From NCBI GenBank assembly GCA_012521035.1, contig JAAYND010000046.1:1-38474 (forward strand): a stretch of 38,474 nucleotides of DNA, read 5' to 3'. Every line of letters begins with the position of its first letter. Positions within the stretch are counted from its first letter, which is position 1. Both the position numbers and the translations under genes were made by a program. The notes under the pieces are model-generated. The model did no database searches. It was not told where the DNA came from and saw nothing but the letters and a program-made list of their open reading frames with translations. Source of the DNA: Methanomicrobiales archaeon (GTDB lineage Archaea > Halobacteriota > Methanomicrobia > Methanomicrobiales > Methanoculleaceae). Of the stretch, positions 10,657 to 24,376 are shown in pieces.

Positions 10657-13600
10657 ATGAGTCGTCTGAAGAATAAGATTCAGTATGTCCTGTTCATACT
10701 GATAGTATGCCTGCTGCTGGTCTCATCGGCAGCAGCGACGGAAGCACCCGGCGATCCGGGTGTGAATCAGGCGGAATATACGCCTGAATTATCGATGCTG
10801 GCCGCAGAGACGGTGCCACTCTTTGACGGCACCGTCGCACTGACAGAGGGGTCGTTTGAGTGTACGGCTTACAACTCTGGTACCGCCTACACCGTCCCGA
10901 ACAATACCCCGCTCGGGGCCCTCCAGGCGGTGGCGGAGCGCAAGGGCTTCACGTACGCGGTCACCGACAAGAAGTGGAGCGCCAATAGTGAAGTCCTCCT
11001 GCTCGATGACATCGGTGAATACACAAGGAATGGCGATAAGTGGGTCTGCTACGTCAACGGTGTCAAGAAGGACGACGGGTACAAAGTCAAAGAAAATGGT
11101 CTCAATGTCATAGCGCTTACTGAAGGCGATGAAGTCGTCTTCTGCTATGGCAGTGATCCGGCGCCGGACGACGCGGACGTCCTGATCAGGATCGTCATGG
11201 GCCTGGAGGACTCGGATGAGACACCCACCACCTGGCGCATAACACTCAAAGGTGCTCTGACCGATATCGTCAGCCAGAGCTACTTCGAGCGGGGGATCGC
11301 TCAAGGGCATGTTGCCGAGTACACTGATGACGACGGTAATGTCTGGGCGGGCATGCCCCTCTGGTACCTCGTCGGCCTCGTAGATGATGAACAGGGGCAC
11401 GGTGCCGGGACGTTCAACGAGGCCCTCGCCGAGAAGGGCTACTCCATCAGGGTCACGTCGAGCGACGACTACTCCATCAACTTCGACAGCGCAAGCGTCG
11501 CAAAGAACGATAACATCATCGTCGCAAACACCCGCAACGGCGAACCACTCCCGGAGACAATCGGTAGTGAGAACAAGCCCTGCTGGCCGCTCCAGATGAT
11601 CGGCAAAGACGTGAACGCCGGCCAGAAGGTCGGTGGCGTCACCACCATCGAGCTCATCGCACTCCCTGAGGTCTCCGATGGGTGGGAGATCACGCTCGCG
11701 GGCGCGTTCAGCCGGACGGTTTCTCAGGATGAGTTTGAGGACTGGACCGGGTGCCACAGCGGGAGGTACACCGACTCCAAAAACCAGGTCTGGACCGGAG
11801 TTCCGCTCTGGTACCTTGTCGGTGCAGTCGATGACGTAGAAGAATCAGGCAGTCACTGGAAATTCAACAATGCACTGGCGGATGAGGGCTACAACGTGCG
11901 GGTGACCGCGGCGGATGGGTTCAACGCTGTCTTCGACATCGCTGATATAGCGAAGAACAATTCATTCATCGTTGCAAACAAGATGAATGCAGCAACACTG
12001 GGTGAAGATGACAGTAACTGGCCGCTGAGGTTCGTCGGCCCCGGCCTCTCCGGTAAAGAGCAGGTCGGCAACATAGTATCGATCTCCCTTGAGGGGCTGC
12101 CGGGTGAAGACGCCACGCCGGAGTGGGTGCTCACCCTTGAGGGGCCGAAGATCACGTATGCCTTCACGAAGGAAGAGTTTGAGGCCGCTGAAGCGTGCTC
12201 TCACCACAAGAAGACCTACAATGACGGAGAAAACACCTGGACCGGCATCACGCTGAAGGCCCTCTGTGGATGGGTTGACGATGATGTCATGCACGGCTCC
12301 GGGGCGTTTGACACCAACCTTGCCCAGACCGGCTACACGGTGATCGTCTCCTCTGGTGAGGATAGCCCCTACAGCAAGGAATTCACCAGCCAGGATATCG
12401 CGGCAAACGCTGATGACTACATCGTCGCAAGCAAGATCAATGGCGATCCCATCGACGGCAAGAACTACCCACTCCGCCTCGTTGGTAAGGGCGCGGCCGG
12501 GAGCCTGAGCGTCGGGAACGTCCAGAGGATCCAGCTCGTCGACTTCCAGAAACCGACGGAACCGCCCTCCATCCGGATCATCAGGTATGCCTCCGATGGC
12601 AGGACGATCGCTGAAGAAGTGACGAAGACCTGCGAGTGGATGGAAGAGAACCTTAAGGTCTATGGTGATCCAGACGGAATCCATCTCCGGTTCCAGGGCC
12701 CGACGTTCGATCCAGACGACCTCTGGAACCCGGCTGAGGATAAAAACCTCGGCAAGGTCGATGAGGTCGTGAAGGGGACAGCGATCAAGGATCTCTGTAA
12801 CCTCGTGGGTGGCGTCCCCGAGGGAGGCGAGGTCGAGCTCATCGCATCCGATGGCAACATAGTCAAGATCAACCACACCAACGTCTACAATCCGCCTGAG
12901 CAGCAGGGAGAGGCGATCGTCGTCTGGTGGGCAGAGCGGCAGGGCTACGTGCCTGACTACCGTGACGGCCCGCGCCTCTTCTACAACACCCCCGACGGCG
13001 TCTTCGGTGCCGAGGACATGCGGACATGCCTTGCTGAAGCCTACTGGCATTACTACCACGACTCCGGCATCCAGTATCCCTCGGCAGCCGGCGTATCCAA
13101 CAAGAACATCGCGACGATCGCGATCAAGCCGAGCCCACGTGAAGACTGGAGCCTCATGCTGAAGGGCGCTATCATAGATTATATCGATCGGTCCTATTTC
13201 GAGTCGGGCAAGGCCTGTGCCATGGCTGGCAGCCACGGCGCGACCTGGACCGATGGGGATGGGCAGGTCTGGTCAGGGATGCCGCTCTGGGTTCTCTGCG
13301 GCTGGGTCGACGACGACAACAAGCATGACTACGGGACAGATCCCTTCAATGACGACCTCGCGAATGCGGGCTACAATGTGACCGTCATCAGCTACGGCCC
13401 CGACGGCATAAAAGGCACAGGCGATGACTTCTCCTGCACATTCAACAGCTCGTTTGTCAAACGCAACAACAACATCATCGTCGCCGATGAGATCGACGGT
13501 GCACCGCTGCCAGAGGACGGCAAGAGCTGGCCGCTGAAACTTGTCGGTGACGCCCTGACATCTGGCAAAGAAAAAATAGGGAGCATCGATGAGATCGAGC

Positions 13601-14139
13601 TGACCGGGGTACCTACCTTTTACGATGCGGCCCTCTCCCTTAAACCTGGCTGGAACTTCGTATCAGTACCGAAATTGCTCCCGGATGAAGAAGATACCGC
13701 TACAATGTTTGCTAATGTCGATCGTGCGCAACACAGCATCTGGCAGTATAACGCCGCGGTAAAGAATTGGAAACGGGTGGAGGATACCGACAGGGTTCTT
13801 CCGCTTGAGGGGTACTGGATCTACTCCACCAAATACCGTGAGATTCCGCTGTGTTTCGATACTGACGTGATCAGGACACCGCCTGCAAAGATGCTTGCCA
13901 GGGGCTGGAACGCCATCGGGTTCAGCGACACCGAGCCTGCAACGGCCCGTGACACCCTCCTCTCGCTCGGCGATGCATGGACACAGGTGATCGGGCACGA
14001 TGCCGGTAAGCAACGCTATGAGACCTCCATCATACGAGGAGGATCGGGCAACCACGCTGACACACAGGAGATGCTGCCTATGAAGGGTTACTGGGTCTAC
14101 CTGCGTGGCGAGAGCGAGCTTGCCGCGATCGGGGCATAA
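10657..14139 (+). CDS. Large exported surface protein: signal peptide, DUF4430-like domain, four sulfite-oxidase-fold-like repeats, shared YHQGP-type domain, duplicated GWN...GYW C-terminal module
   Basis: Signal peptide IQYVLFILIVCLLLVSSAAATEA; DUF4430-like LGALQAVAERKGFTYAV...DKWVCYVNGVKKDDGYKV; repeats starting WRITLKGAL (11233), WEITLAGAF (11683), WVLTLEGPK (12124), WSLMLKGAI (13147); C-terminus GWNFVSVP...LPLEGYWIY and GWNAIGFS...LPMKGYWVY. Confidence 0.85.
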   Translation: MSRLKNKIQYVLFILIVCLLLVSSAAATEAPGDPGVNQAEYTPELSMLAAETVPLFDGTVALTEGSFECTAYNSGTAYTVPNNTPLGALQAVAERKGFTYAVTDKKWSANSEVLLLDDIGEYTRNGDKWVCYVNGVKKDDGYKVKENGLNVIALTEGDEVVFCYGSDPAPDDADVLIRIVMGLEDSDETPTTWRITLKGALTDIVSQSYFERGIAQGHVAEYTDDDGNVWAGMPLWYLVGLVDDEQGHGAGTFNEALAEKGYSIRVTSSDDYSINFDSASVAKNDNIIVANTRNGEPLPETIGSENKPCWPLQMIGKDVNAGQKVGGVTTIELIALPEVSDGWEITLAGAFSRTVSQDEFEDWTGCHSGRYTDSKNQVWTGVPLWYLVGAVDDVEESGSHWKFNNALADEGYNVRVTAADGFNAVFDIADIAKNNSFIVANKMNAATLGEDDSNWPLRFVGPGLSGKEQVGNIVSISLEGLPGEDATPEWVLTLEGPKITYAFTKEEFEAAEACSHHKKTYNDGENTWTGITLKALCGWVDDDVMHGSGAFDTNLAQTGYTVIVSSGEDSPYSKEFTSQDIAANADDYIVASKINGDPIDGKNYPLRLVGKGAAGSLSVGNVQRIQLVDFQKPTEPPSIRIIRYASDGRTIAEEVTKTCEWMEENLKVYGDPDGIHLRFQGPTFDPDDLWNPAEDKNLGKVDEVVKGTAIKDLCNLVGGVPEGGEVELIASDGNIVKINHTNVYNPPEQQGEAIVVWWAERQGYVPDYRDGPRLFYNTPDGVFGAEDMRTCLAEAYWHYYHDSGIQYPSAAGVSNKNIATIAIKPSPREDWSLMLKGAIIDYIDRSYFESGKACAMAGSHGATWTDGDGQVWSGMPLWVLCGWVDDDNKHDYGTDPFNDDLANAGYNVTVISYGPDGIKGTGDDFSCTFNSSFVKRNNNIIVADEIDGAPLPEDGKSWPLKLVGDALTSGKEKIGSIDEIELTGVPTFYDAALSLKPGWNFVSVPKLLPDEEDTATMFANVDRAQHSIWQYNAAVKNWKRVEDTDRVLPLEGYWIYSTKYREIPLCFDTDVIRTPPAKMLARGWNAIGFSDTEPATARDTLLSLGDAWTQVIGHDAGKQRYETSIIRGGSGNHADTQEMLPMKGYWVYLRGESELAAIGA
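11233..12546 (+). repeat. Three consecutive protein-level repeats of about 145 aa in the 1160-aa protein (a fourth copy at about 13147-13614)
   Basis: Each copy: W-x-L-x-L-x-G ... FE...H...YTD..G.VW.GMPLWYLVG.VDD ... F...LA..GY.V.V ... IIVAN..NG..L ... WPL..VG......K.G.I..I.L. Start spacing 450 and 441 nt. Confidence 0.85.
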
Positions 14140-14150
14140 CGGAGTGCACC

Positions 14151-15917
14151 ATGGGTATCAGGCATATCCTGTCTCTCCTCATCCTCTTTTCCCTGGTCGG
14201 CATGGCAGCAGCCCTGCCGGTACTGCCCGATGAATTCGCCGGCAGCGTCACGCTTGATGGCAAAGCCGCACCCCCGGGGACCACCATCACAGCCAGGATA
14301 GACTGGAACGAGCGGGGGTCCACGGTCGTCACAGTGGCAGGGGTGTACGGGCCCCTGGACTCTTCAGACGTCCTCGCGGTCAAGGCGACCGAAGACGACC
14401 TCCGGTATACGGCATCCCCGATCATAACCTTCTGGGTGAACGGTCACAGGGCTGACCAGGAGATCGCGTTTGAGAGTGGAACTGCCCGGCAGCTCGACCT
14501 CTCGGCCGTCACGGGCGGGGAGGAGACTGAACCGGTGCCGGTGGCATCCGGCGGGAACTCGTTTGAGATCGAGGGGGTCGGTGTCACGGATACCGATGAA
14601 GGACAGCAGGTTGTCATCGATAGCAGAACCGTCCTTGGCAACATCACCACCAACGAGACCGCCATCACCCTGAACGATGTGGAGGGCTGGGAGGAAGTGA
14701 TCATCTTCACAAAGGAGAAGCCAAAAGGAGATGCACAGATCACCGGCACCGTCGAGAGTGTCCACGCCCGGAGCAGCCCGGTCAACACCGGAACGGCCTG
14801 GGCGCAGATCGATCTTGAGATGAGCAGCCACCCGAACTCCACCGCACGACTTGAGACGACGGTCTTTGAGAAACCCGGAACTGATGAGCAGAAGGCGTTT
14901 GAAGACGTTGCCTACAAGCTGGCAGGCAGTAGTAACGTCGATATCAGCATTGCGTGTGTCCTGAAAGTACAGAAGACCGGCATCGCAAACGAGGGGGACG
15001 GTGGCATCATCAGGGCCGCAACGATCAGGATGGCGGCCAGCCCCGAATGGGTTGCCAGCATGGGCGGCACGGAGAACGTCGTCATCCTGCGGCAGGCTGA
15101 TGGCGACGACACACCGACCGAACTTCCTACACGCTACGCCGGTAGGGATGCTGCCGGAAATTACATCTTTGAGGCCGTATCCTCGAAAGGTCTCTCGGCA
15201 TTCGCCCTGGTTGCTACAAAAGCCCGGGATAGTGGCCCCGGAACCGGGCCAAGCCCACCATCCGGTAGCAGTGGAGGCCCTTCCAGAGATCCCGGATCGC
15301 AGATCACCTATGACCCCGATGCTCCGGAAGTGTATATCGGGAGCGCACCCCTGACCACATCGCCGGCCGGGGTGGTTCTTGAGTCCGTGACGCTCAGGAC
15401 CGCTGACGGGATCTGTGCCGTCTTGATACAGGAAGGGACCACCGCCCTCGACAAAGACCGGAGATCACTCGGTGAGGTGACCGGTAGAACGATCGCCCCG
15501 GCTGATCTTCCGGCGGCCCCGCCGGGGGTGACGGTTGCCGTCGCTCTCGAATGCGGTCCCGCGGGCGCCATGTTCGACCCGCCGGCCGTCCTCACCTACA
15601 CCCTCTCCGCGGATGAGTGGGCGAAGGCAGGCAAGGGCGCCAGAGCGAAGGTGATCTGGTATAACCCGGAGACGGGGGAGTGGCAGGATATTCCCTCAAC
15701 GGTGAATGTCGCCACACGGACGGTCACCGCGGAGGTCTCGCACTTCAGCATATATGCCCTTGCGTGGACCGCCGCGGAGGCGGCGACGCCGGCATCTGTG
15801 GATACCACCCCACCCGCTGATCAGGAACCAGGGGTTACGTTCCCGGTCTGGGCGCTGGTCATCGTCATCGTGCTGATCGCCGCGGTTGTAGCATTCCTCG
15901 TTATGAGGAAGAACTAA
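14151..15917 (+). CDS. Exported, C-terminally membrane-anchored surface protein
   Basis: Signal peptide RHILSLLILFSLVGMAAALP; LPDEFAGSVTLDGKAAPPGTTITARIDWNERGSTVVTVAGVYG module seen in methanogen surface proteins; C-terminal TM FPVWALVIVIVLIAAVVAFLVMRKN. Confidence 0.8.
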   Translation: MGIRHILSLLILFSLVGMAAALPVLPDEFAGSVTLDGKAAPPGTTITARIDWNERGSTVVTVAGVYGPLDSSDVLAVKATEDDLRYTASPIITFWVNGHRADQEIAFESGTARQLDLSAVTGGEETEPVPVASGGNSFEIEGVGVTDTDEGQQVVIDSRTVLGNITTNETAITLNDVEGWEEVIIFTKEKPKGDAQITGTVESVHARSSPVNTGTAWAQIDLEMSSHPNSTARLETTVFEKPGTDEQKAFEDVAYKLAGSSNVDISIACVLKVQKTGIANEGDGGIIRAATIRMAASPEWVASMGGTENVVILRQADGDDTPTELPTRYAGRDAAGNYIFEAVSSKGLSAFALVATKARDSGPGTGPSPPSGSSGGPSRDPGSQITYDPDAPEVYIGSAPLTTSPAGVVLESVTLRTADGICAVLIQEGTTALDKDRRSLGEVTGRTIAPADLPAAPPGVTVAVALECGPAGAMFDPPAVLTYTLSADEWAKAGKGARAKVIWYNPETGEWQDIPSTVNVATRTVTAEVSHFSIYALAWTAAEAATPASVDTTPPADQEPGVTFPVWALVIVIVLIAAVVAFLVMRKN

Positions 15918-15939: not shown

Positions 15940-18456
15940 ATGGTTTCAGAGCACACACAGGGCGCCTCCTGGCGCCTCATCATCCTCTCGCTCTGCCTCC
16001 TGCTGGCGCTGGCAGCCCCGGTTGTCGCGGCACCGACAACCGAGCTCCACATCAAGAAGATAGCAGCCGACGGAATCACCATCTTGGGCGAAAAAACGGT
16101 CGACTACCGCTGGCTCGAAGCAAATCTCCCCGTCCAGGGAGACGGTCAGACCCACTACTATCACCAGGGACCGGTCTTTGAGGGGGACCCCTGGAACCCG
16201 GAGGAGGATACCAACGTTCTTGACAAGGACATGGGCGCGGTGAAGGGGACAGACCTCAAGGACATCTGCGAACTCGTCGGGGGGATGAGCGAGGAGGATA
16301 CCGTCAGGATCAGGGCGGTAGACGGGATGTCAAAGACGTTCCCCTACAGGAACGTCTACGAACCGGAGTCCCGGCAGGGGCCGATGGTCATCACCTGGTA
16401 CCGGGCTGAGGACGGGTACGTCCCTGACTACTACACCGGGATGCGTCTCGTATTCTTCGCGGACACATCGACCAATCCCGACGGCGTCCACGCTTTCGGG
16501 GTCTGGGATATGCACGAGTGCTTCGATGAGGAGTACTGGTACTTCTTCCAGCCAAACCTCCCGACCACCACGGGTCTCTCTGTACAGTATGTAAGCGAGA
16601 TCACCATCTACAGCGAGGAAGAGGCGACCGGGAGCATCTACGTAAACTCTACTCCCTCCGGGGCTACAATCTATGTGGATGATGAAAAGGCCGGCGGCGT
16701 GACACCCTGCACCATCCCCGGGATCGAGGTCGGCAGCCATTCCGTCCTGGTCAAGCTGGAGGGGTTCGCCCGGCCGGATGAGAAGTGGGTCACGGTCAGG
16801 GTAAACGAGGTCACGGAGGTCGAGTTCAACCTCACCGCCGAGACCGGGAGCATCGCCGTATCCTCTGTCCCGACGAACGCGAGCATATACCTCGATGGAA
16901 ATGTGACAGGGTTCTTCACCGATGCAATCCTGGAGGATATCCTCGTCGGTGAGCATACGATCAAACTCGTGCTTCCAGGATACCTGAACGCTACCCATAC
17001 GATCGAGGTCGAGAAAGACGAGTGCAGTATCCTGGATATCGTTCTCTTCTCCGAGGAGAGTGCTCTGTCTGAACCCATTCCTGGTACCGGAACAATCGCC
17101 GTATCCTCGGTCCCGGCGAACGCGAGTATATACCTCGATGGAGAGGCGACGGGGCTCTGGACCAACACAACCCTGAAAGCAGTGCCAGCTGGTGAGCATA
17201 CGATCAAACTCGTGCTCCCCGGATACCGGAACGCTACAGAGATCGTCACCGTCGAGGAGGGGGGGCATATCGCCCTTGACCTGACCCTCTCCCGGGCAGG
17301 TGATGAGACTGAAGCAGACACCACGGTCCGCGATGAACCCACCCCCGAACGTCAGGAGCCAGACGGCCCTGTAGAGGCTTTCATCGAGACTATCCGCGCT
17401 TTCCTGAAGAATCTATTCTCGTTCTTCGGAGGAGGTACAGCAACCCCGATGAAGCCTGAGAGCACTCAGACCCCGGGCAAGGGTACAGCGACCCCCGCAC
17501 CGACCGGTGCCGCGGCACCCCCCACAAAGAGACCGAGTGAGACAGAGATCGTGAAGAGCCACTCCGGCGGGCTCTACATCGAGTCCTACCCGCCGGACAT
17601 GGCGATCATCCTCGACAACAAAAAACAGATCTGGAAGACGCCACACGTCATCTACGGTCTCCGTGAAGGTCTGCACACCATCGATCTCGAAGAGAGTGAC
17701 CCTGCCGGGAAGAAGGAAGATTCCAGCTACCGGTTTGAACCACGCCAGGTCTGGGTCTACCCCGATGCGATCGCGCCGGTATCCCTCGACGGCCTGACAC
17801 CCAGGCGCTGGAAGACCGTCCAGATAGACTCAGAGGCCTATGTGGGTGCAAAGTTCACGGTGAACGGATTCTATCCGGCCAGTAACATCCCGGGTACCGC
17901 CGAGATCGAAGGCGCAAAGTCCTGGGTCACCGTCCTCTGGGAGGAGACATACCGCTCACACGCGATACCCTTGAGAGTCGGGGACGATGAGACGTACACA
18001 GTAGAACCAGGAAGCGAGAATACCGTCTCGATCACCATCCGGTCAGACCCCGGGGGCGCCGGGGTATTCATCGACGGGTTCCCCACCGGGAAGGTTACGC
18101 CGTGCCGGATAGACGGCATCTCGCCCGGCCAGCACCGTATCCTTGTCTCAAAGCCCGGTTACCTCCCCGCCGAAGAGGTCATCAGTATACAGGAGGGGGC
18201 CAGGACCGGCGGCGCCATCACCTGCGCGCTCCGGGAGTACGTCAGCGGCGACCTCCTCGTCGAGAGCACGGTCCCGGACGCGAAGATCTACCTCTACGGC
18301 AGGTATACAGGCGAGAAAGCACCCCACACCTTCCCTGCGATGTGCATCGGCATATACGATGTCAGAGCGGTCTCCGAGAACGACTCAAAGACCGTCTGGG
18401 ATGTGCTGGTGACACCGGGAGAGACGACCATATGCAGGGTGGTGCTCAAAGAGTGA
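15940..18456 (+). CDS. Exported protein with N-terminal YHQGP-type (SUOX-like) domain and multiple PEGA domains
   Basis: 838 aa; signal peptide LIILSLCLLLALAAPVVAA; TVDYRWLEANLPVQGDGQTHYYHQGPVFEGDPWNP...KGTDLKDICELVGGM...GYVPDYYTGMRLVFFAD; PEGA units such as GSIYVNSTPSGATIYVDDEKAGGVTPCTIPGIEVGSHSVLVKLEGF and SIAVSSVPTNASIYLDGNVTG...GEHTIKLVLPGY. Confidence 0.88.
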   Translation: MVSEHTQGASWRLIILSLCLLLALAAPVVAAPTTELHIKKIAADGITILGEKTVDYRWLEANLPVQGDGQTHYYHQGPVFEGDPWNPEEDTNVLDKDMGAVKGTDLKDICELVGGMSEEDTVRIRAVDGMSKTFPYRNVYEPESRQGPMVITWYRAEDGYVPDYYTGMRLVFFADTSTNPDGVHAFGVWDMHECFDEEYWYFFQPNLPTTTGLSVQYVSEITIYSEEEATGSIYVNSTPSGATIYVDDEKAGGVTPCTIPGIEVGSHSVLVKLEGFARPDEKWVTVRVNEVTEVEFNLTAETGSIAVSSVPTNASIYLDGNVTGFFTDAILEDILVGEHTIKLVLPGYLNATHTIEVEKDECSILDIVLFSEESALSEPIPGTGTIAVSSVPANASIYLDGEATGLWTNTTLKAVPAGEHTIKLVLPGYRNATEIVTVEEGGHIALDLTLSRAGDETEADTTVRDEPTPERQEPDGPVEAFIETIRAFLKNLFSFFGGGTATPMKPESTQTPGKGTATPAPTGAAAPPTKRPSETEIVKSHSGGLYIESYPPDMAIILDNKKQIWKTPHVIYGLREGLHTIDLEESDPAGKKEDSSYRFEPRQVWVYPDAIAPVSLDGLTPRRWKTVQIDSEAYVGAKFTVNGFYPASNIPGTAEIEGAKSWVTVLWEETYRSHAIPLRVGDDETYTVEPGSENTVSITIRSDPGGAGVFIDGFPTGKVTPCRIDGISPGQHRILVSKPGYLPAEEVISIQEGARTGGAITCALREYVSGDLLVESTVPDAKIYLYGRYTGEKAPHTFPAMCIGIYDVRAVSENDSKTVWDVLVTPGETTICRVVLKE
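16855..17226 (+). repeat. Recent tandem duplication of a PEGA domain (period 243 nt = 81 codons)
   Basis: gccgtatcctctgtcccgacgaacgcgagcatatacctcgatgga (16855) vs gccgtatcctcggtcccggcgaacgcgagtatatacctcgatgga (17098); ggtgagcatacgatcaaactcgtgct also shared in both copies. Confidence 0.85.
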
Positions 18457-19631
18457 ACTGGGTGAGGTGGTTCTCTGCGATGGCGGTCGTGCTCCTCGTC
18501 CCGGCGGCATCAGCAGCCATCATATGGGGGCCATACGTCACGAACACCACCGCAGACTCGGCGACGATCAACTGGAAGGCGACCGGGAACGCCACAGGAT
18601 GGGTCGAGTACTCCCCCGAAGGCGGTGGGACCACCTGCATCCCCTCCCCCGGGGATGAGGGCATGCACCGGGTACACCTCGCCGGGCTCCTGCCGGCGAC
18701 CACCTACAGATACCGGGTCGGCGCCGGCGATGGGGTGGTGGAGGACTGCAGGTTCCGGACATTCGGGGACCGGGCGTTCACCTGTATCATATACGGCGAT
18801 AGCCAGGGGCAGAGACCCTTCTTTACGCAGACCGAACGGCACGGCCTTGTGGCGGAGAGGATGGCCGAAAAGGGGGATATTCTCTTTCTCCTCCATACCG
18901 GCGACTTCGTCGGCGATGAGTCGGAGTGGGATGAGTTCTTCGCTATAGCAGGGCCGGTGCTCAGGAACACGACCCTTGTGCCGGTGGCGGGCAACCACGA
19001 CGGCCCGGTGGAGACCTTCACCGAGATCTTCGGGCTCCCACCCCGTTACTCCTTCGATGCCGGCAGCCTCCACGTGACCGTCCTCGACAGCAACGACCGG
19101 GCATGGGCAGACATGAAGAGACAGACCACCTGGCTCGAAGAAGACCTCACGTCCCCCCTGCCCCGGAAGATCGTGGCGTTCCACCACCCGCCGTTCAGCT
19201 CCGACCGGAAACATCCGGGCGGAGACCTGGCGCTCAGGGCCGAGTGGAGCGAGATCTTCTCACAGAGTGGTGTTGACGCGGTCTTTAGCGGGCACACCCA
19301 TACCTACGAGCGCTACCGGGTTTGCGGGACGGAGTACTTCGTCGCCGGGTGCGGCGGTGGTCCGTTCTATCCCCTTGCAGAGGAGAAACCCGGGGGCTAC
19401 CAGGCCGGCAACGAGAGAATACTCGGCTACGTCCGGGCCACCGTCAGCCCGGGGTCGATCGATGCGGAGATGGTAGCGGTGGCAGAGATCACGGAGGAGG
19501 ACGGGGTGACGATCTACCCGGCAGGGACCGTCATCGATTCCGTCCGCCTCCCGGCAGGCATGACCGGTGGATGGTTGAGCGTACTCACATCCCTCCCGGG
19601 CGTGCCGGAATTATCCAGATTCTGGAGATGA
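18453..19631 (+). CDS. Exported calcineurin-like (purple-acid-phosphatase-type) metallophosphoesterase with N-terminal FN3-like domain
   Basis: GTG start overlapping the previous stop (GTGA, 18453-18456), alternative ATG 18432; signal peptide WFSAMAVVLLVPAASAA; motifs GDSQG, GDFVGDESEW, GNHD, HHPPF, GHTHTYER. Confidence 0.88.
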   Translation: MNWVRWFSAMAVVLLVPAASAAIIWGPYVTNTTADSATINWKATGNATGWVEYSPEGGGTTCIPSPGDEGMHRVHLAGLLPATTYRYRVGAGDGVVEDCRFRTFGDRAFTCIIYGDSQGQRPFFTQTERHGLVAERMAEKGDILFLLHTGDFVGDESEWDEFFAIAGPVLRNTTLVPVAGNHDGPVETFTEIFGLPPRYSFDAGSLHVTVLDSNDRAWADMKRQTTWLEEDLTSPLPRKIVAFHHPPFSSDRKHPGGDLALRAEWSEIFSQSGVDAVFSGHTHTYERYRVCGTEYFVAGCGGGPFYPLAEEKPGGYQAGNERILGYVRATVSPGSIDAEMVAVAEITEEDGVTIYPAGTVIDSVRLPAGMTGGWLSVLTSLPGVPELSRFWR

Positions 19632-19635
19632 GACT

Positions 19636-20466
19636 ATGCAGAAGAGACTGATATGGACGCTGCTCGCGCTCCTCTGTGTGAGCATGCTTGCAGGCGCCGC
19701 ATCGGCGGCGCCGACGACCGAACTGCACGTTGCAAAGATCGCAGAAGATGGGGTTACCGTCATAGACGAGACGACGGTCGATTATCGCTGGATGGAGAAG
19801 AATCTCCCGGTCCTCGGGGACGGCGTGACCCACTACTACCACCAGGGACCGGTCTTTGAGGGAGACAAGTGGGATCCCCTGGAGACGACGAACTTCAAGG
19901 ACCGGGGAGCCGTGAAGGGTACGAACGTACGCGACCTCGCTGAACTGGTCGGCGGCGCCGAACCCGGTGATGAGATCATGATCCGGGCGGCCGACGGCTA
20001 CCACGTCGAGTTTGCCTACGAGAACGTCTATGAACCCGACCCGCGCCAGGGGCCCATAGGTATCTGCTGGTATAACGGTGCCGAGGCCGGGGCGGGGGAG
20101 CGGCAGGGGTGCGGTTACGTCCCTGACTACTACACCGGGATGCGCCTCGTATTCTTTGCGGACGACTCGACCAACGAAGAAGGTCTCCACGTCTACGGGA
20201 ACTGGGATATGCACGAGACGCTCCCGGACTCTGCACAGCACTTCTATGACCTCTACCCCTCAACCGGCGGCCTTACGGTGAAGTGGATAGATGAGATCCG
20301 CGTCTACTCCGGCGGTTTCCCGGGTGAGCGGGGAGCCCTTGCGGCATCCCTCAACCCCACGGAGGTGAAGGCGACGACGGAGGCGGCAAAGTCCCCACTC
20401 TCCCTCATGGCGGTTCTCGGGGCAGCACTCGGGGCGGTGGCGCTCCATGCCCGGAGGGAGACGTGA
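19636..20466 (+). CDS. Exported membrane-anchored protein with the YHQGP-type (SUOX-like) domain
   Basis: 276 aa; signal peptide; TTELHVAKIAEDGVTVIDETTVDYRWMEKNLPVLGDGVTHYYHQGPVFEGDKWDPLE, near-copy of the 15940 N-terminus; C-terminal TM SPLSLMAVLGAALGAVALHARRET. Confidence 0.85.
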   Translation: MQKRLIWTLLALLCVSMLAGAASAAPTTELHVAKIAEDGVTVIDETTVDYRWMEKNLPVLGDGVTHYYHQGPVFEGDKWDPLETTNFKDRGAVKGTNVRDLAELVGGAEPGDEIMIRAADGYHVEFAYENVYEPDPRQGPIGICWYNGAEAGAGERQGCGYVPDYYTGMRLVFFADDSTNEEGLHVYGNWDMHETLPDSAQHFYDLYPSTGGLTVKWIDEIRVYSGGFPGERGALAASLNPTEVKATTEAAKSPLSLMAVLGAALGAVALHARRET

Positions 20467-21029
20467 TCCCGGTGCGCCGGATCTCCCTCCCCCTCATCCT
20501 CATGCTGATCGGATCTCTCGTTCTTGTATCCGGTTGTATTGATACGACACCCCCTGACGACTACCCCGCCTGGAACCTGACTCTCGTCGGGGATGGTGAG
20601 ACAGTCCTCACCCACCCTGAGATCAGGGCACTCCCGGCCGCTGAAGGCTACGGCTACTCGGTCTCGACGGTCGGCATAAAGCATGGTCCGAACCACTACC
20701 GTGGTGTGCTCCTTGCTGATCTCGTTCAGGCGGCGGGCGGCGCCGAGGAGAACGATCTGATCTACGTCTCGGCAGAGGACGGATACCTCTGGGTCTTTGG
20801 TATGGACCAGGTGAGGGGTGAGGGGTTCTTCACCTTCGACGAAAACCTCAAGGAGGTTCCACCACCGCCGCTCCGCGTGATCCTGGCCTACGAGCAGGAT
20901 AAAAGACCACTACCCCTCGATGAGGGGGGGCCGCTCCGCCTCATCATCATCACCGAGAGCCCCGATGTCATCACCGAGGGGAGCCCGTGGGTGAAGTGGG
21001 TTGACCGGGTTGAGGTCCAGAAGCGATGA
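20463..21029 (+). CDS. Lipoprotein with Oxidored_molyb (SUOX)-like fold
   Basis: GTG start overlapping previous stop (GTGA); lipobox LVLVSGC; YRGVLLADLVQAAGGAEENDLIYVSAEDGYLWVFGMDQV...GGPLRLIIITESPDVITEGSPWVKWVDRVEVQ pattern. Confidence 0.75.
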   Translation: MIPVRRISLPLILMLIGSLVLVSGCIDTTPPDDYPAWNLTLVGDGETVLTHPEIRALPAAEGYGYSVSTVGIKHGPNHYRGVLLADLVQAAGGAEENDLIYVSAEDGYLWVFGMDQVRGEGFFTFDENLKEVPPPPLRVILAYEQDKRPLPLDEGGPLRLIIITESPDVITEGSPWVKWVDRVEVQKR

Positions 21030-22021
21030 ATCGACCTGCGACTCTCGCCGCCCTCCTTCTCCTCCTGGTGATATCGGCAGGTTGCACTGATGCCGACCCT
21101 GAACGCACCACCCTCATGGTGATACCGGCAGGCAGCCTCCTCTACCCGCTTGAGGATATCGAGGCTGCTTTCGAGGATCAGCACCCCGGTATCGACGTCC
21201 GCATCGAAGGGCACGGGAGCATCCAGGCCATCAGGCAGGTAACGGATCTCAGGAGGGATGTTGATGTCGTCGCAGTCGCAGATGCATCGCTGATACCGGA
21301 TATGATGTACCGGCCTATGCCGGATGGGGGCAGTAACTACACCGACTGGTATGTCGCCTTTGCCGAGAACGAGGTGGTGATCGCCTACACCGATAAGAGC
21401 ATCGGCGCAACCGAGATCACACAGGAGAATTGGTACCGGATCCTCTCCCGCCCGGATGTGCGGGTAGGGTTCTCAAACCCCATGCTCGATGCCTGCGGCT
21501 ACCGGGCGCTCATGGTGACGGTACTTGCTGAGGAGTACTATGGAGAGCCCGGACTCTTTGATGCGATCATAGGTGGATCCTTCAATCCCCTCCTCCCGGT
21601 GACCCGCGAAGATGGTGTAGCAAAGATCACCCTGCCGGAACTGATGAGGCCGGCAGGCGATAAGGTCGCCATCCGCGATGGGAGTATCTACCTCCTCTCG
21701 CTCCTTGACGCCGGCGGTATCGACTACGCCTTCGAGTACCGGAGCGTCGCAGAAGACCATGGACTTTTGTGGATCGATCTGCCCCCCGAGATCAACCTGG
21801 GTTTCGCGGAGTACGCCGATGATTACCAGAAGGCGCACGTGACCCTCGGGTTCAGGCGGTTTCAGTCCATCGAGAGCGAGCGTGTAGGCCAGCCGATCGT
21901 CTACGCGATGACAATCCCGGCAGATGCGCCACACCCCGAGGAGGCGAGGATCTTTGTCGATTTTGTCCTGGAGGCGTTCCAGGACGGCTGGCCGAGATCC
22001 GGTGCTACCGCGATAGACTGA
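21026..22021 (+). CDS. wtpA: WtpA/ModA-like tungstate/molybdate-binding lipoprotein
   Basis: ATGA overlap with upstream gene; lipobox LLVISAGC; LMVIPAGSLLYPLEDIEAAFEDQHPGIDVRIEGHGSIQAIRQVTDLRRDVDVVAVADASLI...NWYRILSRPDVRVGFSNPMLDACGYRALM...YAFEYRSVA...PPEINLGFAEYA, characteristic of the archaeal WtpA family. Confidence 0.85.
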   Translation: MNRPATLAALLLLLVISAGCTDADPERTTLMVIPAGSLLYPLEDIEAAFEDQHPGIDVRIEGHGSIQAIRQVTDLRRDVDVVAVADASLIPDMMYRPMPDGGSNYTDWYVAFAENEVVIAYTDKSIGATEITQENWYRILSRPDVRVGFSNPMLDACGYRALMVTVLAEEYYGEPGLFDAIIGGSFNPLLPVTREDGVAKITLPELMRPAGDKVAIRDGSIYLLSLLDAGGIDYAFEYRSVAEDHGLLWIDLPPEINLGFAEYADDYQKAHVTLGFRRFQSIESERVGQPIVYAMTIPADAPHPEEARIFVDFVLEAFQDGWPRSGATAID

Positions 22022-22053: not shown

Positions 22054-22752
22054 CTACCCGATCACGATATCGCAGTACACCCCATCGACCGGCTCGACAA
22101 AGAGGATCGCCTTTCCCCCGATGAAAGCCGGCTTTGGAAACTTCCGGAGCGCCACGAGACCTTCATCAACCACCGCACCGTCGCGCGTCATGACCCGGTC
22201 GACGCCGCAGGCGAGGATCGCATCGACCGTCTGGGTGCCCTGCAGGCTCCGGGTCTCGCCCCTGATGATGAACCGGCCGTCGTTTGCGGACGCCGCAAGC
22301 CCTATGCCGGCGAGCGCACCGATCACGCCGTCCTCGGTCCCACCGAGCCCTTCGAGGCGGATCCCCGCCGCCCGCGCAAGCCCCCGGGCCCGGCCCTGCG
22401 TCACAACACTTTTCTTTGCGGTGAACCCGAAGTCACGGATCTCATCCCCGATCTCAGCCTCTGTCGCAACGCAGATCCCGGGATCGCTCCCCTCAACGAA
22501 GTCGGAGAGCATCAGTTCCTTTGCAGCCGAGAAGAGATCCGCGCCGGCCCCGTTATCCGCACCCTCGATATGGATGACCGCGCAACTGTTGTGCGAGGTA
22601 TACGGGATGGACAGGTGGACATAGAGCTGGTGGCGGGTAACCCCGGTGACCGTGTACGACCGGGCGAGTTCTGCTGCAATCATGCGGGCGAGTCGTCCGG
22701 TTCCCCGGGACTCGAGGGTGTCAGTGTCATCAATGCCAAGATAGAGAGTCAT
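22054..22752 (-). CDS. TiaS-like domain protein (tRNA-Ile2 agmatinylcytidine synthetase N-terminal-like)
   Basis: 232 aa, MTLYLGIDDTDTLESRGTGRLARMIAAELA...; IDDTD(T/S)xxxxGTG signature; much shorter than full TiaS. Confidence 0.75.
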   Translation of the reverse strand: MTLYLGIDDTDTLESRGTGRLARMIAAELARSYTVTGVTRHQLYVHLSIPYTSHNSCAVIHIEGADNGAGADLFSAAKELMLSDFVEGSDPGICVATEAEIGDEIRDFGFTAKKSVVTQGRARGLARAAGIRLEGLGGTEDGVIGALAGIGLAASANDGRFIIRGETRSLQGTQTVDAILACGVDRVMTRDGAVVDEGLVALRKFPKPAFIGGKAILFVEPVDGVYCDIVIG

Positions 22753-22837: not shown

Positions 22838-23644
22838 TCACGCTCTGATTATGGTGCCGACACGCTCACCGTTCATGAGCCGTGTGAGGGTTCCGGGTAC
22901 ATGAACGTTCACGATCTTGATCTCTTTGACATGAACAGCGTCCCGGAGCAACTCGATCGCCATGCCCTCAAGCACCATATCCTCGAGGTTCATCTCCAGG
23001 AGCTCATCGGCTGTTATATCCGCTATGAACTCTGCATCAGGGTTTACAAACGGATTTTCGGTATAGAGACCATCCACGTTCTTCCCGAGGATACAGTTCT
23101 TCGCGCCCACGACCTCGGCTATCAGGAACGCCCCGGTATCAGTCCGGTGCGGCGGGATACTGCCGATCCTCGGCGGGTGCTCGTAGAGCCCGTAGGGTGG
23201 TGTGCCCTGCACGACCGGCAGCATACCGAGCGATATGAGCGATGGGAGGTTTAAGAGGTCGTCGGTCTCGATCCGGATACCGTTGTACCTTGAGAAGAGT
23301 AGCGATATCATGATCGCGTTCTGCTCGCTGATCTTGCCCGCCAGTTCTGCGAGCACCCCCGTCGGCATACCGAGGTCGATCCCGACATCGAGTATGTGCC
23401 GCGTCCGGGCGCCGCCGCCGGTAGCAACCAGGATCTTGTGATCCCGGGTGAGTTCGCCGATCTCCTCGATCAGCGGGTAGATCACTTTCTTCCCGTAATC
23501 AATGACACCGTGGCCGCCGATCTTGATCACGTTCAGGTCTGGCATGACCCTGATCTGCTGGACTTTCGCGGTCTCCCGCATCAGGCCACGTCGGACAAGG
23601 CTCTCGCCCCGTAACTTCGATCCGATCTCAATTCGTCCTGTCAT
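22838..23644 (-). CDS. Amino-acid-kinase-fold protein resembling molybdenum/tungsten storage protein (MosA/MosB); usually auto-annotated as uridylate kinase
   Basis: VMPDLNVIKIGGHGVIDYGKKVIYPLIEEIGEL...KILVATGGGARTRHILDVGIDLGMPTGVLAELAGKISEQNA...IGSIPPHRTDTGAFLIAEVVGAKNCILGKNVDGLYTENPF...KEIKIVNVHVPGTLTRLMNGERVGTIIRA; the IPPHR.DTGAFL.A and VPG.LT....GE.VGT.IR blocks match what I recall of MoSto subunits. Confidence 0.75.
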   Translation of the reverse strand: MTGRIEIGSKLRGESLVRRGLMRETAKVQQIRVMPDLNVIKIGGHGVIDYGKKVIYPLIEEIGELTRDHKILVATGGGARTRHILDVGIDLGMPTGVLAELAGKISEQNAIMISLLFSRYNGIRIETDDLLNLPSLISLGMLPVVQGTPPYGLYEHPPRIGSIPPHRTDTGAFLIAEVVGAKNCILGKNVDGLYTENPFVNPDAEFIADITADELLEMNLEDMVLEGMAIELLRDAVHVKEIKIVNVHVPGTLTRLMNGERVGTIIRA

Positions 23645-23693
23645 GATATCTCATCCCCATACTGAATGAGTGGGGAAAGTATTAAGAACTTCG

Positions 23694-23715
23694 TGGTATA
23701 TCTACTGATATACCA
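23694..23715. promoter_or_regulatory. Perfect 9-4-9 dyad with back-to-back TATA-like elements between divergent genes
   Basis: TGGTATATC-TACT-GATATACCA; arms are exact reverse complements; lies between starts at 23644 (-) and 23738 (+). Confidence 0.7.
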
Positions 23716-23737
23716 GTTGGTTAGGAGTGATGAAGCG

Positions 23738-23971
23738 ATGAAGATCTATGCACGAGAGCGCCAGAAGGTCGGTACCGGCGTAAAGCAGCCCAGGTTCCGC
23801 GTTGTCGCCGTCGCCACAGAGAAGGGCGATGAGAAGCACCTGAAGGTAGAGGGAGTCCACTTCCGGAAGATCGAGCTCGAAGAGATCGCAAAAGATCTCG
23901 GGGCTGAGATCATCTACCTCGAGGAGATGCCCGAAGAAGAGCGGGGCGAGATGAAGGCAGAGGCTGCGTAA
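23738..23971 (+). CDS. Conserved small protein, 77 aa
   Basis: MKIYARERQKVGTGVKQPRFRVVAVATEKGDEKHLKVEGVHFRKIELEEIAKDLGAEIIYLEEMPEEERGEMKAEAA; the track start at 23666 would extend through the promoter dyad, so ATG 23738 is preferred. Confidence 0.75.
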   Translation: MKIYARERQKVGTGVKQPRFRVVAVATEKGDEKHLKVEGVHFRKIELEEIAKDLGAEIIYLEEMPEEERGEMKAEAA

Positions 23972-24022: not shown

Positions 24023-24376
24023 ATGCCCATACATGAACATGACGAGATGATCGATGCGGCTATCCGTATCCTTCTCGAAGAAGACCAGCAGATAACCATC
24101 AGTTTTTCTCCAGGCGGCATCTCCATCCGTTTCCCCACAACCCGCAAACTCGCTGAATACCTCGGTATCCCTCATTACTATGTCCTGCCCCGGTTCGGTG
24201 CGATGGAGCGGGACGGGCTTATCACCCGCATTGAGCGAGTCGGCATATCAACCACGGTGGCAGGGACAAAAGAGCTCCTCAGGCTCATGGCGGAGCACTA
24301 CCAGGAGCGCGCGGAGGAGATCCTGGGAAAAGAGTTCCTCCGGGCCCTGCAGGCGAACGCGAACGGCAGGGAGTAG
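24023..24376 (+). CDS. Small winged-helix-like DNA-binding protein
   Basis: 117 aa; TTRKLAEYLGIPHYYVLPRFGAMERDGLITRIERVGISTTVAGTKELLRLM, HTH-like arrangement. Confidence 0.6.
   Translation: MPIHEHDEMIDAAIRILLEEDQQITISFSPGGISIRFPTTRKLAEYLGIPHYYVLPRFGAMERDGLITRIERVGISTTVAGTKELLRLMAEHYQERAEEILGKEFLRALQANANGRE

Follow-up and report, generated by a model that had tools for sequence, protein, structure and literature searches.

The window analysed here, 38,474 nucleotides long, takes up all of contig C223, which comes from a draft metagenome-assembled genome (2.24 Mb in 326 contigs, 87% complete, 4.3% contamination), and it carries a run of genes for surface proteins on the plus strand, among which lies a gene for a tungstate/molybdate-binding lipoprotein of the WtpA family (21026–22021, +), hereafter WtpA2. 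Upstream of this gene were found a 1160-aa secreted protein (10657–14139, +) with repeated SUOX-fold (Oxidored_molyb) domains in two stretches (PF00174, E = 2e-16) and a D-like stretch; A (14151–15917, +), a membrane-anchored surface protein with no family above cut-off; B (15940–18456, +), a surface protein with five PEGA domains (PF08308, E = 6e-71) and a D-like N-terminal domain recognized from tblastn cross-hits; C (18453–19631, +), a secreted calcineurin-like metallophosphoesterase with a purple-acid-phosphatase N-terminal domain (PF00149, E = 6e-15; PF16656, E = 4e-9), the start of which was inferred from a GTGA overlap with B; D (19636–20466, +), a surface protein with a signal peptide, a PruR-like domain by weak fold match and a C-terminal hydrophobic helix; and E (20463–21029, +), a lipoprotein with a GTG start and the lipobox VSG-C25, assigned to the SUOX fold by PF00174 (E = 8e-12), AlphaFold2 and Foldseek. 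The D and E genes overlap as GTGA (20463–20466), and the stop of E overlaps the start of WtpA2 as ATGA (21026–21029), confirming the coupling to a SUOX-fold lipoprotein that was described in the initial annotation. The gene next to WtpA2 lies on the opposite strand, as had also been stated there, and encodes a TiaS-like or methanogenesis-marker-11-like protein (22054–22752, −; TIGR03280 and NF040849 both below cut-off). It is followed by a gene for an amino-acid-kinase-fold protein resembling a subunit of the molybdenum storage protein, MoSto (22838–23644, −). Large surface-protein clusters built of PEGA proteins and SUOX-repeat proteins like that at 10657–14139 also occur elsewhere in the order. 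The genes downstream of WtpA2 in other Methanoculleus-like genomes had no recognizable connection with metal uptake, two reading from sequence as phenylacetate-CoA ligases and one as an ACT-domain protein.

The WtpA2 open reading frame encodes 331 aa, and sequence reading revealed the lipobox ISAG-C20, of which G19-C20 was conserved in at least 95% of 51 orthologues. The signal peptide and lipobox, both kept in the orthologues, indicate an exported and membrane-anchored protein. WtpA2 passed the curated cut-off of TIGR03730, tungstate_WtpA (E = 2.8e-100; 335 bits against 242.75), so its designation as a WtpA-type lipoprotein holds, and scored below that of the equivalog model NF003196 (312.9 against 355). 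In addition, five solved WtpA/ModA proteins matched at E = 1e-53 or better, among them PDB 3cfz (E = 2e-71). No PF00528 permease was detected on contig C223, the entire window, in agreement with the reported absence of wtpBC from the operon. The genome search for wtpB, wtpC and a second wtpA that had been proposed found both elsewhere: two further WtpA matches exceeded the cut-off, on contigs C24 and C79, and matches to WtpB and WtpC were present, with WtpBC on C79. The C24 and C79 copies resemble versions of a single tupA-tupB-tupC-wtpA-wtpB-wtpC locus from two strains. The genome thus possesses an ordinary WtpABC besides WtpA2, which appears as an orphan in the window because its pump genes stand elsewhere.

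A survey of 150 genomes of the order Methanomicrobiales separated the WtpA matches into two classes, with 52–88% identity (WtpA2) and about 35–48% identity (ordinary WtpA), respectively. WtpA2 was present in 57 genomes, including that of the window, and shared about 40% identity with ordinary WtpA. A tree of 149 sequences placed WtpA2 in one clade (SH-aLRT 100), with second WtpA copies from other families of the phylum as its sisters (joint clade support 100). The clade is marked by H63, Q67, A/S156, S220, R278 and R286, of which H63, Q67, R278 and R286 are invariant and specific to WtpA2, as is a short insert. The motif LDACGYR, which had been remarked upon for departing from the common LDPCGYR, proved to be a clade trait, with Ala in 56 and Ser in 2 of the 58 sequences compared with Pro in 51/51 ordinary WtpA. 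A WtpA2 with 84% identity was also found on a contig titled Clostridiaceae (L021), probably a misbinned archaeal contig.

WtpA holds tungstate octahedrally via Asp160 and Glu218 (P. furiosus numbering for Asp160) (PMC10221389). The first carboxylate corresponds to Asp155 of WtpA2 and was Asp in all 149 aligned sequences. At the Glu218 position, placed in the alignment by inference from chain numbering, WtpA2 has Ser220 (Ser in 58/58 of the clade). Glu218 was also missing in many ordinary WtpA, so this residue is no mark of the whole family. The acidic residue of AFEYRS, at position 237, had been taken as a metal ligand, for which the solved structures were rejected as proof, since the A. fulgidus, M. 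jannaschii, M. acetivorans and P. horikoshii proteins have Ile there; within the WtpA2 clade the assignment was nonetheless plausible through an exchange with the known ligand position. Among the 149 sequences, three of which are PDB sequences, 39 had an acidic residue only at Glu218, 102 only at position 237 (Glu or Asp), none at both and 5 at neither; the exchange had been perfect in a sample of 109, and the five were added by wider sampling. On the tree, this pattern amounts to only three to four independent switches (sign test, p = 0.25). Hence, Glu237 may be a second tungsten ligand replacing Glu218, and the pattern suggests, short of proof, that the second ligand of WtpA has moved between positions. 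Such a movable ligand would bear on how selectivity for tungsten versus molybdenum is built.

WtpA2 lay immediately 3′ of E, and D immediately 5′ of it, in 50 of 55 loci each, the exceptions including contig ends and gaps in gene calling. The E and WtpA2 genes overlapped or started within 80 nt in 48 of the 50 relatives examined, showing that the coupling is not due to chance and bearing out a stable association with surface proteins of the SUOX fold. The triad recurs across Methanomicrobiales and related families of the phylum, where the sister WtpA copies have E upstream, and mostly D too, wherever the contig extends far enough. The phosphoesterase C was present in many, not all, relatives, and the other surface proteins of the cluster differ between lineages. 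This variability would suit an explanation in which WtpA2 is a second copy like any other, without a special role, and the triad a long-standing operon, its surface proteins unrelated, that has persisted through inertia, but we regard it as quite improbable, considering that E was found in 57/57 WtpA2 genomes, that the single genome with a strong E match and no WtpA2 has its E cut at a contig edge, and that the D-E-WtpA2 order is maintained outside the order Methanomicrobiales although WtpBC and the neighbouring genes vary in presence. The constant pairing of WtpA2 with SUOX-fold proteins devoid of the molybdenum cysteine is new here, and in the literature searched, a partnership with such surface proteins appears in no described Wtp system; likewise, no literature joining PEGA proteins with tungstate was found, mostly among papers outside subscription.

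The AlphaFold2 model of E (pLDDT 91.6) adopts the SUOX fold, and Foldseek returned PruR (7kom; TMt 0.72) as its best solved match, with sulfite oxidase-type enzymes next. D had no sequence match in Pfam, NCBIfam or PDB; its top three Foldseek matches were all PruR (best E = 0.01, prob 0.99), which, given a low-confidence model (pLDDT 65), serves as a lead only. No conserved cysteine was detected in the D or E families except that of the E lipobox (53 E sequences), which makes a molybdenum centre of the sulfite-oxidase type unlikely, E having no Cys ligand of molybdenum as found in SUOX molybdoenzymes. E does agree with the definition of PruR as a small secreted SUOX fold without the molybdenum cysteine (PMC13259868). 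PruR, which does not have this cysteine, binds reduced pterins, with Trp160 and Tyr104 (A. tumefaciens numbering) as pterin-binding residues (PMC13259868). Among the invariant residues of E are Trp110, Trp176, Trp179 and Tyr108.

These likenesses raise the question of whether D and E could bind pterin as PruR does, either gating WtpA2/WtpBC or recovering tungsten or molybdenum from released pterin cofactor, which would make the locus a pterin-linked metal uptake operon. The nearness of E (and weakly of D) to PruR, the absence of a conserved cysteine beyond the E lipobox, PruR likewise having no molybdenum cysteine (PMC13259868), and the secreted phosphoesterase often found in the cluster are consistent with this. 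The support, however, is one of fold similarity, and SUOX-fold domains are repeated in the surface-protein cluster, where they may serve as scaffold; we therefore hold such an operon to be a long shot. Equally doubtful is its fuller version, a surface pterin-linked acquisition of tungsten and molybdenum in which D and E would bind a signal pterin or released tungsto- or molybdopterin and control or feed WtpA2 as a dedicated oxyanion-binding protein, which would dock on a shared WtpBC.

The distribution of the permease across genomes argued for import by WtpA2. Near-complete genomes were defined as those at least 90% complete (108 in the order), and WtpB was called at about 197 bits or more, our own cut, as the NCBI cut-off of 340 was reached by 0/150 genomes, including those with complete wtpABC operons; match positions for the co-occurrence count were transferred by hand from the genome searches. 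WtpA2 occurred in 47 of the 108 near-complete genomes, and all 47 had WtpB, WtpA2 being the only WtpA in 12 of them and both kinds being present in 35. Ordinary WtpA and WtpB without WtpA2 were found in 13 near-complete genomes, neither WtpA in 41, none of which had WtpB, and WtpB without any WtpA never occurred among the 108 (Fisher, p = 6e-19, uncorrected for kinship). Among the matches listed, seven genomes had ordinary WtpA without WtpB by the 197-bit criterion, and two WtpA2 genomes without WtpB (G128 and G067) were fragments 81–83% complete.

Moreover, WtpBC adjoins WtpA2 in eleven genomes, directly 3′ in G005, G036, G041, G073, G101 and G137, with one gene between in G008, convergent in G054, G078 and G082, and upstream in G149; WtpBC also stands beside the corresponding WtpA in further families of the phylum. 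A TupA-WtpA fusion, a single lipoprotein of 649 aa in which a TupA domain precedes a WtpA domain, was observed at L088:4892-6841 and also in G137 and G073; in these genomes the only WtpB adjoins WtpA2.

In 13 genomes, including G022, G100, G145, G004, G010 and G086, no WtpA other than WtpA2 exceeded the cut-off. The locus of the first three reads tupA-tupA-tupB-tupC-wtpB-wtpC with wtpA gone, while wtpBC follows another gene in G004 and G010 and lies about 10 kb from WtpA2 in G086. The gap between tupC and wtpB ends in a C-terminal WtpA remnant in G022 and has an N-terminal remnant in G145, and WtpB and WtpC are intact in both. The remnants of ordinary wtpA between tupC and wtpB (L115:8334-8685 and L119:7585-7833) read as recent pseudogenes. 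The dN/dS of WtpB/WtpC was 0.13–0.28 where wtpA was lost and 0.16–0.26 where it was kept; WtpBC is under purifying selection in several Methanoculleus-like genomes that lost ordinary wtpA. The WtpB tree tracks the host and not the type of partner, and the WtpBs without ordinary wtpA are scattered in it, indicating repeated losses of wtpA. A lone WtpA serving a distant WtpBC, the arrangement that the initial annotation had set against its own proposal, was thus found in relatives (G022, G100, G145, G004 and G010) and not in the genome of the window. The proposal itself, in which surface proteins take the place of WtpBC as partners of WtpA2, is not supported, given the presence of WtpB in every near-complete WtpA2 genome, the adjacency in relatives, the 12 near-complete genomes with WtpA2 as sole WtpA, and the decay of at least two ordinary wtpA copies beside intact wtpBC.

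For the six genomes named above, where WtpA2 is the only WtpA and WtpBC stands intact elsewhere or about 10 kb away, use of WtpBC by WtpA2 in trans is the simplest interpretation, and it is likewise the simplest that WtpA2 can do so in the genome of the window. As such, we consider WtpA2, with a probability of roughly 75%, to be a second substrate-binding lipoprotein of the WtpABC importer, feeding WtpBC in trans here with D and E assisting at the surface. Tungsten and molybdenum are essential to the formate and CO2 metabolism of these methanogens. From its anchor on the outside of the membrane, WtpA2 would bind the oxyanion via Asp155 and probably Glu237 and would then hand it to the WtpBC permease and ATPase; the only WtpBC found in this genome belongs to the tup-wtpABC locus on the other contig, which would imply action in trans. 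D and E, made together with WtpA2, would most likely help to capture the ligand, to present it or to regulate the transporter. Judged from sequence and gene context, WtpA2 very probably works in import through WtpBC. Counting against this are the D-E linkage, which plain import leaves unexplained, the 44 of 57 WtpA2 genomes that retain an ordinary WtpA and in which a further role is possible, the Ser at the Glu218 position, the sub-threshold NF003196 score, and the incompleteness and contamination of the genome.

Where ordinary WtpABC is kept, WtpA2 might alternatively be no part of a transporter, acting through D and E as a surface sensor or oxyanion donor. The triad is constant and mostly without WtpBC in the operon, and the four invariant residues together with the insert could form a new contact surface; on the other hand, the operon has no known signalling partner, WtpB accompanies WtpA2 in every near-complete genome, and many genomes, also within the same genus, have no WtpA besides WtpA2. 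We judge this alternative, the delivery to surface proteins or sensing first suggested for this gene, unlikely, and it is not needed to explain the data. The import reading is retained, and what emerges is a second clade of WtpA, which apparently uses the same permease as ordinary WtpA and has repeatedly replaced it.

The MoSto-like neighbour was also considered. Its product matched the beta subunit of MoSto (PDB 2ogx_B) at E = 3e-63, compared with about 1e-9 for UMP kinases, and in 35 of 45 genomes with both on one contig, the gene lay within 16 kb of ordinary WtpA or its WtpBC. This proximity suggests that methanogens may store tungsten or molybdenum. As an explanation of WtpA2 the gene was rejected, since its distribution follows WtpA2 less than it follows the locus of ordinary WtpABC. 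A 2019 paper on MoSto stated that no homologues were known (PMC6448029), and our search, mostly without subscription papers, found none joining the molybdenum storage protein with methanogens. Two small proteins of unknown family (23666–23971 and 24023–24376, +), the latter with a weak regulator-like match, recur near the MoSto-like gene, and both types also lie beside WtpA2 in a genome outside the order (G210, locus L200).

Compared with known systems, TupABC and ModABC perform the same kind of ABC oxyanion import, and tup genes adjoin ordinary wtpABC in this genus, but WtpA2 belongs to neither the TupA nor the ModA family. E shares its domain family and fold with the sulfite oxidase and YedY molybdoenzymes (PF00174), whereas it has no molybdenum-ligating cysteine, making such catalysis unlikely. 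With PruR, E shares the fold, small size, secretion and absence of the molybdenum cysteine (D weakly so); however, E is an archaeal lipoprotein encoded beside a metal-oxyanion-binding protein, PruR stands beside DcpA, and pterin binding by E is only hypothetical. WtpA2 is closest to the WtpA/ModA-type proteins (P. furiosus WtpA, AF_0094, MJ1186 and MA_0280), with strong similarity and the same family model, lipoprotein anchor, AGSL and GS motifs and Asp ligand. It differs from them in forming a separate clade with Ser at the Glu218 position, Glu or Asp at 237, DA for DP, an EGHGSIQ motif and an insert after MMY, and in having SUOX-fold operon partners with WtpBC usually not adjacent.
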